DNA of 52,561 bases from Caldivirga sp. Its GTDB lineage: Archaea; Thermoproteota; Thermoprotei; Thermoproteales; Thermocladiaceae. This document shows, one piece after another, positions 34,594 to 41,395 of the stretch (positions are counted from its first letter, which is position 1; every line of letters starts with the position of its first letter). The notes under the pieces are model-generated. The model did no database searches. It was given only the letters and a program-made list of their open reading frames with translations, and was not told the origin of the DNA. The stretch is from the NCBI RefSeq assembly GCF_023256255.1, contig NZ_JAGDXD010000048.1, positions 1 through 52,561 on the forward strand, read 5' to 3'. Position numbers and translations under genes: made by a program.

Positions 34594-34615
34594 CCCTTAA
34601 GTGAATAAGTTAATA

Positions 34616-36019
34616 ATGAATTTTGAGGCCTTCAGAGTTGAGGTTAGGAAGATAATTAATGAGGATAGGATTATTGAATCCCAGGGGGAATTAATGCTCT
34701 ACTCATATGATGCATCACCGGCTGAGCAGGCCACGCCAAGGATGGTTATTCAACCATTAAACACAGGTGAGGTTTCCGAAATACTGAAGTTAGCTAATGA
34801 ATACCTAGTGCCAATAGTCCCAAGCAGTGGTAGAACAAGCCTACACGGTGGCCCAATACCGTATAATGGGGCTGTTGTGGTTGATTTAATGAGGATGAAT
34901 AAGGTACTTGAGGTTAACCTAGAGGATAGTTACGTGCATAGTGAGGTTGGGGTTAGGTTGGATGAACTTAACGCTGAATTAGCAAGATACGGCCACTTCT
35001 TCCCACCTGACCCAGCAAGTAGCGCTGCAGCCACTGTGGGTGGTTCATTGGCCAATGGTGCAGGAGGCATGAGGGGTGCTAAGTATGGTACGGTTAAGGA
35101 CTGGGTACTCGGCGCTGAGGTGGTTTTACCAACAGGTGAAGTAGCGTTCATGGGTTGCAGAACCTTGAAGTGTAGGGCTGGGTATGATTTACTGAGCCTA
35201 ATAATAGGGAGTGAGGGAACCCTGGGGGTAATTACTAACGCTTACCTTAAAATATGGCCACTGCCGGAGGCGGTGGCTAGATTGAGGGTTTACTTCAGGA
35301 GTATTGTTGATGCAGCTAGGGCGGTGGGGGTGATTAAGGCTAGGGGGTTTAGGCCATTGATAATTGAGTTTCTGGATAGGGGGACGATGGAGGCTGTTTC
35401 AAACTATGTGAAGGAGTTTAAGTACCCTGAGGATGCTGAGGCAATGCTGATAATTGATATTGATGGTCCCCCCGAGGCCATGGATAGGTACGTTAACTCA
35501 ATGATAACCCTACTTGGGGAAACAGGGGGCTTTGAGATTGAGTGGACTAGTGATAGGGATGAAATGGATAAGATATACATGGCTAGAAGGGCCGCTTACC
35601 CAGCCTTACTTAGGTTATACAGTAATGAGAGGGTAATGCCTGAAGATATATCAGTACCCCCATCTAGGTTACCTGAAGCCGTTAAGGGGGTAAGGGACAT
35701 TGGTAATAAGTATGGGTTAAAGATAGTTACGTGGGGGCATGTTGGTGATGGTAATCTTCACCCCAACATAATTTACAATCCAAGTGACCAATCGTCAGTA
35801 TCAAAATTGCACTCAGTCACTAAGGAAATAGGCCTACTTGCAATTAACCTAGGTGGGACGGTTAGCAGTGAGCATGGTGTTGGGGTTCTTAAGAAGGAAC
35901 TATTAGTCAGTGAACTGGGTGTTAAGGGTATAGCGCAGTTAAGGTTAATGAAGGCCATAAAGAGGGTCTTTGATCCAAATAACATTCTTAACCCAGGTAA
36001 GGTGATTGATGTTGATTAA
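34616..36019 (+). CDS. FAD-linked D-2-hydroxyacid dehydrogenase (GlcD/D-lactate dehydrogenase type)
   Basis: About 467 residues of the FAD_binding_4 plus FAD-oxidase_C architecture. Present are 'PIVPSSGRTSLHGGPIPYNG', 'PPDPASSAAATVGGSLANGA' with 'GTVKDWVLGAEVVLPTG' in the FAD domain, 'TWGHVGDGNLHPNIIY' with the active-site His, and 'SSEHGVGVLK'. It oxidises D-lactate, glycolate or a related 2-hydroxyacid. A ferredoxin-type partner is encoded immediately downstream with overlapping genes. The TATA element 'cttaaat' at 34587-34593 is 26 nt before the ATG at 34616, which I prefer to the GTG at 34601. The sulfate-reduction genes are next on the same strand. Confidence 0.9.
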   Translation: MNFEAFRVEVRKIINEDRIIESQGELMLYSYDASPAEQATPRMVIQPLNTGEVSEILKLANEYLVPIVPSSGRTSLHGGPIPYNGAVVVDLMRMNKVLEVNLEDSYVHSEVGVRLDELNAELARYGHFFPPDPASSAAATVGGSLANGAGGMRGAKYGTVKDWVLGAEVVLPTGEVAFMGCRTLKCRAGYDLLSLIIGSEGTLGVITNAYLKIWPLPEAVARLRVYFRSIVDAARAVGVIKARGFRPLIIEFLDRGTMEAVSNYVKEFKYPEDAEAMLIIDIDGPPEAMDRYVNSMITLLGETGGFEIEWTSDRDEMDKIYMARRAAYPALLRLYSNERVMPEDISVPPSRLPEAVKGVRDIGNKYGLKIVTWGHVGDGNLHPNIIYNPSDQSSVSKLHSVTKEIGLLAINLGGTVSSEHGVGVLKKELLVSELGVKGIAQLRLMKAIKRVFDPNNILNPGKVIDVD

Positions 36020-36317
36020 TGAGGGGGCTAAGCTAATAGTTGAGGAGTACGCCTTAACCAGATGTGCCCGTTGCAACTTCTGCGAGTCAGTTTGCCCAAC
36101 CTATGCCGTAACTAGGCGTAGGGTTTATGGACCAAGAGGTAGGATATGGATCATAGTGTATCTCTCCCAGGGAATTAAATTAAGCGATGATGAATACACT
36201 GGTTTATTATCATGCCTAGCTTGTAGGGCATGCAACCTAGCTTGCCCAGCAGGCATTAAGATAGCTGAGGCTATTCATGATGCCAAGGCCCTACTGATTA
36301 GGGTTGCTTTAAAATAG
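36009..36317 (+). CDS. Minimal two-cluster iron-sulfur subunit (GlcF/HdrC N-terminal type)
   Basis: About 102 residues holding two [4Fe-4S] motifs and little else: 'CARCNFCESVCPTY' at about 16-28 and 'CLACRACNLACPAGI' at about 67-80. These are the ferredoxin-like part of GlcF/GlpC/HdrC. The CCG-type Cys-rich domains usually found in the 400-residue GlcF are absent. It overlaps the GlcD-like gene by 11 nt, so the two form one enzyme passing electrons from the flavoprotein to a carrier. A NarI-like membrane protein gene begins 73 nt downstream behind its own TATA box. Confidence 0.85.
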   Translation: MLINEGAKLIVEEYALTRCARCNFCESVCPTYAVTRRRVYGPRGRIWIIVYLSQGIKLSDDEYTGLLSCLACRACNLACPAGIKIAEAIHDAKALLIRVALK

Positions 36318-36358
36318 GTCTAATGTTAACTACTAAGTGTGGGCTTATATTATTAAGG

Positions 36359-36390: not shown

Positions 36391-37236
36391 ATGATCGAGT
36401 TAAAAATACCAATACCACATGAGTGGGTAATATTAGGTGCTGTTGGGCTTCTTGTGGAGATGGCTATAGGATTCATTATACAAATACGCAGAGGTGTATT
36501 ATCACTATCCAGCTTAGGCAGCTTCATACCAATAAGGGGGCCTACACGTAACTTGGGTAGTGGGGGTGCGTTATTGGCGGCTTTAGCCACAGCATTAGCA
36601 TATCCATTCTACGGTGCCCCAATGACCTCATGCCACACGCAAGCATCATACCTCAGTAGACCTAGGATTAAGGCTATCGCCCATGCACTTGTGTGGTGGG
36701 GTTTCGTGTTGGCTGCAGTATCCACAACACTAGGCTTCATATTTGATAAATGGGTTAACGCAACAACATTCATACCTGGCGGTAAACTAGGCCAAACAGG
36801 ACCTTACGTAGTCATTGGGACAGGGGCACTTGGTGGTGTGCTAATAGTAGTTGGCTTTGCATTAATGATGGCGGTTAGGTGGCAGGGAACTGAGCCTATT
36901 AATGAGCCTGCGTTAACCGATGCTTTCCTTTGGTTAGCATTCCTAACGGCATTAAGTGGCTTCGGAGTGATGGCTGTTGAGTTAACCATACCTGGCAATT
37001 ACCTGGCTGTTGAGTCGGCCTTTGGCGTACACATAGTCATAGTCCTACTCATGTTTGCCACAATGCCTTGGACTAAGTTTGGGCATGCAATATACATGTA
37101 CGTGTGGCAGGCCTATGATAGGTATAGGGTATGGAAAGGCATTGAACCTAGGCTCCTTGGACCATGGAGTGGTGAATTAGCTGAAAAGGCGCTTCACTCA
37201 CATCACCCTGCACATAAACCTAAGGTGACCAGCTAA
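36391..37236 (+). CDS. NarI/DsrM/HdrE-like cytochrome b membrane subunit, probable electron conduit for APS reductase
   Basis: 281 residues with five to six membrane helices (about 12-34, 55-77, 92-118, 138-162, 176-200, 208-240). Histidines suited to b-heme binding are conserved as in the NarI/DsrM/HdrE/QmoC superfamily: 'AIAHALVWWGF' (about 99) and the paired 'GVHIVIVL...MPWTKFGHAIY' (about 215 and 233, H...PxxKxxH). The tail is His-rich. Its stop overlaps the aprB start (TAATG), so it is translated with APS reductase. Given no QmoA/B in this window, I infer that it moves menaquinol electrons to AprBA. It is not AprM-like by eye, though I cannot search. Confidence 0.8.
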   Translation: MIELKIPIPHEWVILGAVGLLVEMAIGFIIQIRRGVLSLSSLGSFIPIRGPTRNLGSGGALLAALATALAYPFYGAPMTSCHTQASYLSRPRIKAIAHALVWWGFVLAAVSTTLGFIFDKWVNATTFIPGGKLGQTGPYVVIGTGALGGVLIVVGFALMMAVRWQGTEPINEPALTDAFLWLAFLTALSGFGVMAVELTIPGNYLAVESAFGVHIVIVLLMFATMPWTKFGHAIYMYVWQAYDRYRVWKGIEPRLLGPWSGELAEKALHSHHPAHKPKVTS

Positions 37237-37721
37237 TGCCATCCTACGTAATCCCAGCAAAGTGTACAGGATGCGGAGACTGCGTCAACATTTGCCCAAG
37301 CCACATAATGAAGTTCACCAAGTCAGGCGTATTTGGTAGGAAGGCGGTCAACATTGAGCCTGAGTCATGTTGGGAATGCTACAATTGCGTTAAACACTGT
37401 CCACAGGGTGCTGTGCAGATAAGGGGATACGTAGACTTCACGCCACTAGGCGGTTCAGTTGAGGTGTATAGGGATGAGAAGACTAATAGGGTTTACTGGA
37501 CCATTAGGTATAGGAACGGTAACATTAAGCACTTCGTCTTCCCAATAAGAACAAAGCCGTGGAATTCAATAAAACCCCCTAATGAATACCCTGAACCACC
37601 CAAGGAATTCCTAAGGACACCCTACTTATCCCTTGAGCATGAGAAACTAGGCGGCAATAAACTCGGTGTTGAACTCCCCACGTACAAGGTACCTGAGGTG
37701 ATTAAGGTGGAGGTGAGGTGA
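37236..37721 (+). CDS. aprB: Dissimilatory APS reductase, beta subunit
   Basis: 161 residues. The N-terminal ferredoxin domain has 'IPAKCTGCGDCVNICPSHIM' and 'CWECYNCVKHCPQGAVQI', ligating two [4Fe-4S] clusters that bring electrons to the flavin of AprA. The segment 'YVDFTPLGGSVEVYRDEKTN' and the long C-terminal tail that wraps the alpha subunit are typical of AprB. Its ATG overlaps the stop of the membrane subunit by one nucleotide, and its stop overlaps the aprA start region. Soluble, cytoplasmic. Confidence 0.95.
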   Translation: MPSYVIPAKCTGCGDCVNICPSHIMKFTKSGVFGRKAVNIEPESCWECYNCVKHCPQGAVQIRGYVDFTPLGGSVEVYRDEKTNRVYWTIRYRNGNIKHFVFPIRTKPWNSIKPPNEYPEPPKEFLRTPYLSLEHEKLGGNKLGVELPTYKVPEVIKVEVR

Positions 37722-39634
37722 TGGGGATGGTTAGGACAAGGGTTAGGCAGATTGACTCAGACATATTAATAATCGGCGGAGGCATGGCTGGGACAGGCGC
37801 TGCCTGGGAGGCTAAGTACTGGTGTAGGAATTGCAGGATAGTGATTGCTGAGAAGGCTAACATAAATAGAAGTGGCGCAGTGGCAATGGGCTTATCAGCA
37901 ATAAATACCTACCTTGGTTTAAGATGCAAGGAGAACACTGTTGAGGACTACGTGAAGTACGTTAGGGGTGACTTAATGGGTATTGTAAGGGAGGACTTGG
38001 TTTACGACTACGCAAGACACGTTGACTCAACAGTGCACTTGTTTGATGAATGGGGGTTACCAATATGGCCAGCGCCTAATGGGTGTTACGTACGTGAGGG
38101 TAAGTGGCAAATAATGATTCATGGCGAATCCTATAAGGCTATTGTAGCTGAGGCTGCTAGGAAGGCTATTGGTGATGATAACATATTGAATAGGGTAATG
38201 GTAACCCACCTATTAAAGAGCTCCAGTGACCCGAATAGGGTTGTTGGTGCATTGGGCTTCAATGTTAATGACGGCACAATCTACGTCTTTAAGGCTAAGG
38301 CGGTTATAATGGCTGCAGGCGGTGGTTCACAGATATATAGACCTAGGTCACAGGGTGAGGGGCTTGGTAGAAGTTGGTACCCACCATGGTCATCAGCCTC
38401 ATCGTACGGTATGATGATTGAATCTGGTGCAGTTATGACGATGTTTGAGGCTAGGTTCGTAGTGCCCAGGTTTAAGGATGGTTACGGACCCGTGGGTGCT
38501 TATCAATTAATGTTGAAGACCAGGATAAGTAACGTAAATGGGCAGGACTTCTGGAAGCCACACTTGGATGAGGTTAGGAAACTCTACAGTGGTAAGGGTA
38601 GGTACGTTGACTTACCCATAACCCCAACTACGCTTAGGGTTTACGCTCAACGCTTAGAGTGGATTAACGGCAGGGGGCCAAGCCTAATGAGAACTGATGA
38701 AACTGTTAAGAAGGGTACTGAGAGTGAGGCAATCGCCTTCGAGGACTTCCTCGACATGACGATAAGCCAAGTTGCTATTTGGGCTGGGCAGAACCATGAA
38801 CCCTCTGAAAGGCCATATGAAGTAATAACCACTGAACCATACGTAATGGGTTCACACGCCACTGAGTGTGGTGCATGGGCAAGTGGGCCTGAGGACTTGT
38901 CACCAAGGAAAATTGATGGATTACCCAATGATAGGGGGACTCAATATTACTGGGGCTATAATAGGATGACTACCTTAGATGGGTTATTCTGCGCAGGTGA
39001 TGCATGTGGCGCTAATCCACATAAGTTCAGTAGTGGTTCATTCACCGAGGGTAGGCTTGCAGCCAAGTCAGCGGTGCTGTACCTTATGGATCACAGTGAT
39101 GAAAAGATTGATGTTGATAAGGGGCAGGTTGACTTAATGATTAGCAAACTGGTGGAGCCCCTGGAGCGTTGGGAGGAGGGTAAGTACAGTGTTGTAACTG
39201 GGCCAAGCAGCATGCATCCAGTGGATCCTAGTAAGATTTACTGGAAGCAGGGCTTATTTAGGCTTCAGAAGATAATGGATGAGTACGCCGGCGGCTGGTC
39301 AACAATGTACACTACTAATGAATGGATGCTTAATAGGGCTATTGAACTACTGCAATTCCTGAAGGAGGACTTCATTAAGTACGCTGCGGCTCGGGATTGG
39401 CATGAATTAATGAGGACCTGGGAGCTTTGGCACAGGATACTGACTGCTGAAGCCGTGGTTAGGCACATGCTCTTCAGGAAGGAGACCAGGTGGCCGGGCT
39501 ACTACGTTAGGGCGGATTACCCAGCATTGGATGATGAGAATTGGCATGTCTTCGTTAACTCAAGGTACGATGCAAAGACTGGGGAGTGGGAGTTATGGAA
39601 AGTCCCCGTGGTGCACATAATAGAGTTCCCGTGA
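37721..39634 (+). CDS. aprA: Dissimilatory APS reductase, alpha (flavoprotein) subunit
   Basis: About 637 residues, the AprA length. FAD binding: 'DILIIGGGMAGTGAAWEAKY'; 'NINRSGAVAMGLSAINTYL' and 'RPRSQGEGLGRSWYPPWSSA' are AprA hallmarks; 'EARFVVPRFKDGYGPVGAY' lines the active site; 'DGLFCAGDACGANPHKFSSG' closes the FAD site. It reduces adenosine-5'-phosphosulfate to sulfite and AMP (or the reverse). Tandem GGTGA sequences at 37710-37720 serve starts at 37721 or 37727 (GTG at 37718 is also in frame). It lies between aprB and sat in one operon. Confidence 0.96.
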   Translation: MGMVRTRVRQIDSDILIIGGGMAGTGAAWEAKYWCRNCRIVIAEKANINRSGAVAMGLSAINTYLGLRCKENTVEDYVKYVRGDLMGIVREDLVYDYARHVDSTVHLFDEWGLPIWPAPNGCYVREGKWQIMIHGESYKAIVAEAARKAIGDDNILNRVMVTHLLKSSSDPNRVVGALGFNVNDGTIYVFKAKAVIMAAGGGSQIYRPRSQGEGLGRSWYPPWSSASSYGMMIESGAVMTMFEARFVVPRFKDGYGPVGAYQLMLKTRISNVNGQDFWKPHLDEVRKLYSGKGRYVDLPITPTTLRVYAQRLEWINGRGPSLMRTDETVKKGTESEAIAFEDFLDMTISQVAIWAGQNHEPSERPYEVITTEPYVMGSHATECGAWASGPEDLSPRKIDGLPNDRGTQYYWGYNRMTTLDGLFCAGDACGANPHKFSSGSFTEGRLAAKSAVLYLMDHSDEKIDVDKGQVDLMISKLVEPLERWEEGKYSVVTGPSSMHPVDPSKIYWKQGLFRLQKIMDEYAGGWSTMYTTNEWMLNRAIELLQFLKEDFIKYAAARDWHELMRTWELWHRILTAEAVVRHMLFRKETRWPGYYVRADYPALDDENWHVFVNSRYDAKTGEWELWKVPVVHIIEFP

Positions 39635-39638
39635 GGTG

Positions 39639-41021
39639 ATGCCGGTGAGCCTAAAGATTCAGACTCCTCCTCCACATGGAGGGAAGTTAGTTGATGCGGT
39701 GGTTAGGGATGAGAATAAGGCAGTTAGCATGGCTGCTGGCTTACCGGTATATGATATAAAGCCCACAAGAAGCATTATTGACGGTAACCCCATTAGGAAT
39801 GTTTACAGGGAAGTAATGTCAATAGCATATGGCTTCTTCAGTCCACTAGACAGATTCATGACTAGGAATGAGGTTGAGAGTGTGCTTAAGGAGAGGAGGC
39901 TTACCGATGGTTGGTTATTCCCATTCCCAATAATATTCGACATAAGTGAGGATGATTTAAGGAAACTGGGTGTGAAGGAGGGTGATAGGGTTCTACTTAG
40001 GTTGAAGTCACAACCCTTCGCTGTACTTGATATTGAGGAGGTCTGGAAGTTTGACCCTAAGGACATTGCTGATAGGACGTTTGGTACGCCTGAAAGGAAC
40101 CCTGAGGTTGTGAGGAGGAGGTTTGATGAGAAGCACCCAGGTTGGTTAATATACAGGAGCATGTCTGGCTTGGCCTTAGCTGGTAAGGTACACGTTATTA
40201 ATGAGCCGGTGTTCAAGGACCCCTACAATAGGTTCTGGTACCCACCAGCAAAATCCCGTGAGGAGTTTAGGAGTAGGGGTTGGAGGACTGTGATAGCTCA
40301 CCAGACGAGGAACGTACCTCACACTGGTCATGAGCATTTAATGAAGAATGCAGCCTACATGGGTGACATTGAACCCTGCCACGGCATACTTGTTAACGCA
40401 ATAATAGGGGCTAAGAGACTTGGGGACTTCGTTGATGAGGCGATACTTGAGGGTCACGAGGCCGTTAACAAGTATGGTTACATCAGCCCAAAGAGGCACA
40501 TGGTTACAATGACCCTCTGGGACATGAGGTATGGTAACCCACTTGAGTCGCTGCTTCATGGGATAATTAGGCAGAACATGGGCTGCACCCACCACATGTT
40601 TGGTAGGGATCATGCGGCAGTGGGTGATTACTACGATCCGTATTCAACCCAGGTGCTTTGGGAGAAGGGTATACCGAGCTTCGGTTTACCTGCACCACCT
40701 TATGATGTTGATAAGGGACTTAAGATAAGGCCAGTTAATATTAAGGAGTTCTGGTACTGCCCCAAGTGTGGTGAAATAGCGTACAGTGACACATGTGGAC
40801 ACGCTGATGTAGCCCAGAGGTTTAGTGGAAGCTTCATAAGGGGACTCATAGCTGAGGGTATTGAACCACCACCGATAATATTTAGACCAGAGGTTTATAG
40901 GGTTATTGTTAAGTGGTGGAGGGTTTACAATTACCCATTTGTTAATAGGAAGTACCTTGAGTTAAAGGAGAGGGAGCTTGAAGTTGACTTGAAACCAATG
41001 GAGGTGAGTAGTAGGAGGTGA
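39639..41021 (+). CDS. sat: ATP sulfurylase (dissimilatory)
   Basis: About 460 residues, similar in size to the homo-oligomeric archaeal Sat. The catalytic signature is present: 'AHQTRNVPHTGHEHLMKNAA' (QxRN and HxGH, about residues 221-230) and 'MFGRDHAAVGDYYDP' (about 322). A zinc-binding segment 'YCPKCGEIAYSDTCGH' precedes the C-terminal 'RPEVYRVIVKWW'. It makes APS from sulfate and ATP, supplying AprBA. Starts are ambiguous (GTG 39636, ATG 39639, GTG 39645) behind a GAGGTGAT ribosome-binding site. No pyrophosphatase gene is next to it. Its 3' end is fused by overlap to the next small gene. Confidence 0.96.
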   Translation: MPVSLKIQTPPPHGGKLVDAVVRDENKAVSMAAGLPVYDIKPTRSIIDGNPIRNVYREVMSIAYGFFSPLDRFMTRNEVESVLKERRLTDGWLFPFPIIFDISEDDLRKLGVKEGDRVLLRLKSQPFAVLDIEEVWKFDPKDIADRTFGTPERNPEVVRRRFDEKHPGWLIYRSMSGLALAGKVHVINEPVFKDPYNRFWYPPAKSREEFRSRGWRTVIAHQTRNVPHTGHEHLMKNAAYMGDIEPCHGILVNAIIGAKRLGDFVDEAILEGHEAVNKYGYISPKRHMVTMTLWDMRYGNPLESLLHGIIRQNMGCTHHMFGRDHAAVGDYYDPYSTQVLWEKGIPSFGLPAPPYDVDKGLKIRPVNIKEFWYCPKCGEIAYSDTCGHADVAQRFSGSFIRGLIAEGIEPPPIIFRPEVYRVIVKWWRVYNYPFVNRKYLELKERELEVDLKPMEVSSRR

Positions 41022-41026
41022 TGGGC

Positions 41027-41395
41027 ATGCCATACAAGATAGCTGTTATCCTAGATAAGGCAAGGCTTGAGAGGATAAGGGGCACTAGTCTCGAGGGCAT
41101 GGTTAAAGACCTCTATGGAGGCTACTTGAAGGCTATTGAGCTTAATGTGCCTGATGATATCGCCCAGAGAATCCTTAAGGAGTTTCCAAGAGCTAGAATT
41201 GACGCAAGAGGCTTCATTGAGGAAACCCCAGTTGCCTTTAAGAGGGAGTTATTTGAGGTTATGGCGCAATTAAAGAGTACTGGACCCGAAGTCTTCGGTG
41301 AATTACTTAAGCCTGAGAGGCTTAGTAGGGTTAAGGAAGCAGCCGCTAAGGAGGATGAGTATTTGCCGCCGCCCAACATAGCCTACTGCGGTTGA
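41027..41395 (+). CDS. Small protein terminating the apr-sat operon, unknown function
   Basis: About 122 residues, soluble, with an alpha/beta look: 'YKIAVILDKARLERI' at the N-terminus, 'GYLKAIELNVPDDIAQRIL' in the middle, 'RELFEVMAQLKSTGPEVFGE' and an ending 'EDEYLPPPNIAYCG' with a penultimate Cys. I do not recognise a named family. A strong GGAGGTGAT ribosome-binding site at 41014-41022, inside the end of sat, points to the ATG at 41027; ATG/GTG codons at 41021 and 41018 are alternatives. From memory, Archaeoglobus carries a small unknown orf in its sat/apr operon, so this may be an analogue. A role in APS handling or complex assembly is inference. Confidence 0.75.
   Translation: MPYKIAVILDKARLERIRGTSLEGMVKDLYGGYLKAIELNVPDDIAQRILKEFPRARIDARGFIEETPVAFKRELFEVMAQLKSTGPEVFGELLKPERLSRVKEAAAKEDEYLPPPNIAYCG

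Follow-up and report, generated by a model that had tools for sequence, protein, structure and literature searches.

The window analyzed here is a 52,561-nucleotide stretch of the genome of Caldivirga sp. (RefSeq assembly GCF_023256255.1, contig NZ_JAGDXD010000048.1, positions 1 to 52,561, forward strand). It is contig 48 of a 2.07-Mb genome that is 97% complete and, within the collection, is most closely related to Caldivirga species. Positions 36391 to 41395 hold an operon of five genes, all on the + strand with overlaps or only very short gaps between them, which encode a membrane protein, the two subunits of the dissimilatory adenosine 5'-phosphosulfate (APS) reductase AprBA, an ATP sulfurylase and a small protein. 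The membrane gene (36391..37236) specifies 281 amino acids with five predicted transmembrane helices and overlaps by one base with aprB (37236..37721), which encodes the beta subunit with its two [4Fe-4S] clusters. These are followed by aprA (37718..39634), encoding the FAD-containing alpha subunit, sat (39636..41021), encoding the dissimilatory ATP sulfurylase (Pfam ATP-sulfurylase, 4.5e-71), and a DUF6955 gene (41018..41395; PF22271, 5.7e-30 with Pfam) that is usually linked to sat in relatives. The first-pass annotation, made from the letters of the window, had described this same operon, and its open reading frames were confirmed. AprBA belongs to the dissimilatory APS reductases, as both subunits exceed the curated NCBIfam equivalog cut-offs (TIGR02060, 156.7 versus 135.65 bits for AprB; TIGR02061, 849 versus 641.75 bits for AprA). 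The subject of this report is the membrane protein, which probably supplies the missing connection between the APS reductase and the membrane.

Transcription of the unit may start at the membrane gene, since a gap of 73 bases precedes it and contains an AT-rich stretch (36345..36358, + strand, 33-46 nt before the gene) that, judged from sequence only, could be an archaeal TATA box. A scan for sigma-70 promoters gave a signal at chance level.

The membrane protein had been labelled NarI/DsrM-like, a description that the profile comparisons replace with QmoC/TcuB-like. Residues 93-237 match the membrane half of QmoC (NF038018) at 1.3e-12 and 47.8 bits, which is far below the family cut-off of 300 bits, and the protein matches TcuB/CitB at 3.1e-11. 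The score against NarI (Pfam PF02665) is 20.5 bits and falls below the cut-off of 22.9. QmoC is matched by all 42 members of the membrane-protein family, whereas DsrM (NF038037) is matched by only one of them; a relative from the Nitrososphaeria of the kind termed O-type (locus L142) has no Pfam match. The combination of an NF038037 match and a neighboring dsrK, by which DsrM is recognized, was not found for the membrane gene, and the source genome has two DsrMK pairs of its own on contigs C19 and C23, so that a DsrM-like identity was rejected. By its profile matches, then, the protein is a cytochrome b domain of the QmoC/TcuB type and not DsrM. It differs from QmoC in that comparison with the curated profile and with Pfam found no N-terminal HdrC-like Fe-S domain, and also in that QmoC sits with qmoAB and forms a separate clade. 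TcuB, the membrane partner in tricarballylate dehydrogenase, serves the FrdA-like flavoprotein TcuA and carries its own Fe-S clusters, whereas in the archaeal operon these are supplied by AprB. NarI and DsrM share the same broad heme b fold of five transmembrane helices.

Candidate heme ligands in the membrane protein are H98, H214 and H232, with H10 and H82 as additional candidates in close relatives. Four residues, H232, C81, G104 and R163, do not vary across the 42 aligned members, and QmoC has H98, H214, H232 and the C81 and R163 positions in common with the archaeal protein. Residues H187 and H205 of Escherichia coli NarI align with H214 and H232, respectively, but the second histidine in transmembrane helix 2 of NarI is not kept. 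AlphaFold gave a model with a pLDDT of 51.7 from 7 sequences and of 79.1 (pTM 0.76) from 42 sequences. The predicted helices place H98 and H232 close to the cytoplasmic face, where they probably hold a heme next to AprB, and the conservation of the histidines suggests that the protein is probably heme-binding. Alternatively, the protein could be a plain membrane anchor that takes no part in electron transfer, with AprBA exchanging electrons with Qmo or ferredoxin. The ligands are indeed not all required, as O-type members lack H214 while retaining H98 and H232, and members from the Thermoproteaceae have lysine in place of H98. All three histidines are kept, however, in Caldivirga, Vulcanisaeta, genus g3, the Conexivisphaerales and the N-type members, and there are complete genomes with no QmoAB at all; together with the invariance of H232 these observations make a simple anchor improbable.

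The strongest indication of what the membrane protein belongs with comes from its distribution. In a phylum-wide search, aprA exceeded the cut-off in 27 genomes, which all belong to two families of the order Thermoproteales; a few other genomes have fragmented aprA. The membrane gene adjoins aprB in every one of the 26 Thermoproteales genomes with an archaeal-type aprA (26/26), which answers the concern raised in the first-pass annotation that it might be unlinked from aprBA in all relatives. In Caldivirga, Vulcanisaeta and genus g3 it touches aprB on the same strand, and in the Thermoproteaceae it is adjacent but divergent. A profile search of 45 Thermoproteales genomes located the membrane gene in 28; it was not found by that search in the complete genomes without aprA (G017, G033, G041 and G072), and the weak matches in genus g4 are to the Qmo-type cytochrome of that genus. 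Among 42 genomes searched for both genes, 26 carry the two together, 15 carry neither and no genome has archaeal-type aprA by itself; in the one remaining genome (G272) only the membrane gene was found, and its contig breaks off within aprB. The genes are thus kept together and lost together, an association that chance does not explain (Fisher p = 1.6e-10, a value uncorrected for shared ancestry among genomes that are not independent). In the membrane-protein tree the aprB-linked proteins all fall into a single clade, which excludes QmoC and the g4 protein (support 100/99). Apart from N607, the main groups within it agree with those of the AprA tree. The membrane gene tracks aprBA and not Qmo, because it is linked to aprBA also in genomes without QmoAB/HdrA.

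The first-pass annotation had noted that QmoA and QmoB are missing, which is correct for the window but not for the genome. The genome does have a complete type II qmoABC, at about 42.0-47.2 kb of contig G000:C66, where genes for an FlpD/MvhD-like protein, two HdrA-like flavoproteins of 459 and 656 amino acids, a small helix-turn-helix (HTH) protein and a full-length QmoC-type protein are clustered. This QmoC matches NF038018 at 1e-53 and 183 bits over its full length and is likewise under the 300-bit cut-off. DsrE-like and FlpD/MvhD-like genes precede the organism's own qmo genes (L023 8296-14183), and the small HTH gene between qmoB and qmoC is conserved in relatives. The same cluster occurs in G130 (2,298,983 bp), which we take to be V. 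moutnovskia, and in G124 (2,432,148 bp), the length of which is identical to that of the published V. souniana genome; both have the membrane gene as well. The V. moutnovskia cluster is named QmoABC type II in published work (PMC10504309).

HdrA/QmoAB are absent from 13 genomes that are at least 90% complete and carry aprBA plus the membrane gene. These include G057 (one contig of 2,077,567 bp, which matches C. maquilingensis in size), G100, G142 and most Thermoproteaceae. Complete genomes with the membrane gene and without qmoAB are G057, G025, G049, G065, G106, G112, G136 and G172. This absence agrees with the statement that Caldivirga and Pyrobaculum have no qmo and that the donor to AprBA is unknown (PMC2211403).

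Two proposals fare poorly against this distribution. The first treats the membrane protein as a spare QmoC, partnered with QmoAB and not directly with AprBA, for which it can be said that QmoC is the closest curated family. The source genome has its own full-length QmoC on C66, though, there are complete genomes with the membrane gene and no QmoAB, and in none of the loci examined did the membrane gene adjoin qmoA or qmoB; this very unlikely proposal was rejected. The second, that the membrane protein is a minimal replacement of Qmo in the source organism, follows the first-pass suggestion that a single cytochrome b feeds AprBA. That the cytochrome belongs with AprBA is upheld by the linkage in every archaeal-type locus, including those from genomes without QmoAB/HdrA, and replacement does hold in sister genomes that lack HdrA/QmoAB, among them G057 and G100. 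The annotation had itself named a complete qmoABC elsewhere in the genome as evidence against its suggestion, and with that set found on C66, replacement in the source genome is scarcely credible and was rejected. The membrane gene does not replace Qmo there; both are present.

Genus g4 is an informative exception. Its aprBA is the only one without the membrane gene, and it has a Qmo-like cluster attached. The AprA of g4 is of a different, higher-scoring type, and no aprB-linked membrane gene of this family occurs in the genus. In g4 (L053 5793-13150, L052 and L080) aprB and aprA are divergently transcribed, and aprA is followed by genes for an HdrC-like protein, an 821-amino-acid HdrA/QmoB-like protein and a 297-amino-acid protein like the QmoC membrane half. 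From its gene content, the cluster is a split Qmo-like variant with a single HdrA. The AprB of g4 has an insertion at the Qmo-docking loop proposed in PMC2211403, and this insertion is absent from every other AprB aligned, including that of the source genome, where the tryptophan of the CWEC motif is kept. A plasmid record labelled Klebsiella pneumoniae (NZ_CP061967.1 19869-21725) encodes an AprA that is 61% identical to the g4 enzyme and is likely a mislabelled or contaminating sequence.

On this evidence the membrane gene product is likely an archaeal protein of the AprM type, the membrane subunit that links APS reductase to quinones. The enzyme would be a membrane-bound APS reductase with a third subunit, encoded in the order M-B-A-sat (M being the membrane gene). 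The five-helix cytochrome b of the QmoC/TcuB type would bind one or more heme b groups close to the cytoplasmic side of the membrane, probably through H98 and H232, and through contact with AprB would allow electrons to be exchanged between the menaquinone pool and the AprB [4Fe-4S] clusters and then the FAD of AprA. It would act much as proposed for AprM in sulfur oxidizers, and much as in fumarate/succinate or tricarballylate enzymes, where a heme b membrane subunit is joined directly to the FAD and Fe-S units. Where QmoABC is also present, as in the source genome, it would offer a second route to AprBA or the quinone pool.

The closest described counterpart is AprM of Allochromatium vinosum, which has five predicted transmembrane helices, is encoded directly upstream of aprBA with sat linked, and was proposed to be the membrane entry point for electrons (PMC3779200). 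The archaeal protein is alike in its five helices, in the position of its gene, immediately before aprBA with an overlap or no gap (adjacent but divergent in the Thermoproteaceae), and in its linkage to sat. AprM was described as having no similarity to a known domain or cofactor site (PMC3779200), whereas the archaeal protein, compared with AprM by description only, matches QmoC/TcuB and keeps heme-type histidines. The absence of qmo that accompanies AprM systems is seen in G057, G100 and most Thermoproteaceae, but not in the source genome.

Several observations weigh against assigning the archaeal protein as a quinone-linked subunit. With qmoABC complete in the source genome, the membrane subunit is not necessarily the main donor, and the attribution of sulfate reduction in V. 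moutnovskia to acquired Qmo (cited through PMC10504309) suggests that the membrane subunit alone may not support this process. The best Protein Data Bank fold matches of the AlphaFold model are NarI chains with probability up to 0.99, but the match is weak (E 0.13, TM-score 0.33-0.43). N607 is placed differently in the membrane-protein and AprA trees. Heme binding may be lost in the Thermoproteaceae, because H98 is replaced by lysine and the membrane gene is divergent from aprB.

Other changes are seen in this family. In Thermoproteus- and Pyrobaculum-type AprB (L066, L067, L069-L071 and L073-L075) the CWEC tryptophan, which lies between cluster and FAD, is replaced by alanine or serine, and genus g7 has lysine for H98 in the membrane protein with the AprB tryptophan kept. 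At L068 (G065, the size of which fits P. aerophilum, known for frameshifted aprBA) aprB is split into two open reading frames and aprA has an in-frame stop, with the membrane gene intact. Such substitutions suggest that function may be decaying or altered in the Thermoproteus- and Pyrobaculum-type genomes, and the Pyrobaculum APS reductase was already suspected to be non-functional (PMC2211403).

The order M-B-A-sat recurs in the class Nitrososphaeria (L009, L132-L138, L142, L143, L145, L146, L148 and L149). The operons of the Conexivisphaerales have a canonical Sat, with DUF6955 in some and dsr genes nearby in L009, and those of other Nitrososphaeria lineages have a shorter Sat that is about 30% identical to the window Sat. 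Locus L142 carries a sulfur-oxidation set consisting of TusA, DsrE-like proteins, a lipoate-binding GcvH-like protein, lipoate ligase and sHdr-type genes, and the relative at L141 adjoins an FrdA/FrdB-like pair. Two genomes, G439 (L133, L148) and G450 (L134, L149), each have two different M-B-A-sat operons, one with the canonical Sat and one with the short Sat (~30% identical), and a division between directions is possible.

The potentials of the APS/sulfite couple (about -60 mV) and menaquinone (about -74 mV) are close, and therefore one protein could serve either direction. Cues from gene content conflict, in that the Nitrososphaeria neighbors point to oxidation and the reductive Dsr genes of the Thermoproteales to reduction. 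It is possible, with somewhat less than even probability, that the membrane subunit is mainly oxidative, passing electrons from the conversion of sulfite to APS into the quinone pool while Sat makes ATP and sulfate, and that net sulfate reduction needs Qmo; this is a sub-case of the quinone-linked subunit and not fully exclusive of it. Nitrososphaeria relatives beside sHdr/TusA/LbpA sulfur-oxidation genes, the description of Qmo-less archaea as users of sulfite and not sulfate, and the oxidative direction proposed for Allochromatium AprM (PMC3779200) are consistent with it. Caldivirga and Vulcanisaeta nevertheless have reductive-type Dsr genes, growth on sulfate is reported for Thermoproteus tenax (unpublished data in the source cited), and sequence cannot tell direction. 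A more doubtful idea is that a heme b AprMBA usable both ways was the original archaeal APS reductase and predates the use of Qmo, in which case bacterial AprM and the Thermoproteaceae version would be descendants that lost heme.

In every Caldivirga examined, the operon is immediately preceded by genes for a GlcD-type FAD-linked oxidase (34601..36019, + strand) and a 103-amino-acid HdrC-like [4Fe-4S] ferredoxin (36006..36317, + strand; Fer4_8). This pair (34601-36317), a possible lactate or glycolate electron donor, is a neighbor in Caldivirga only and lies outside the conserved unit; the membrane gene was rejected as a part of it because in other genera the membrane gene does not have these two neighbors. 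DUF6955 is repeatedly linked to sat in the Thermoproteales and Conexivisphaerales, and none was seen beside the shorter Sat of sHdr-linked operons.

The redox partner of crenarchaeal APS reductase has been stated to be unknown (PMC2211403). No description of this archaeal subunit was found in the literature searched, and an earlier mention in subscription papers or supplements is possible. Whether Qmo is present has been the focus of discussion on archaeal sulfate reduction. With a conserved candidate partner the question of the electron partner becomes testable, and there is a possible reason for the retention of aprBA-sat by archaea without Qmo. The four-gene unit M-B-A-sat links archaeal reducers with putative archaeal sulfur oxidizers.

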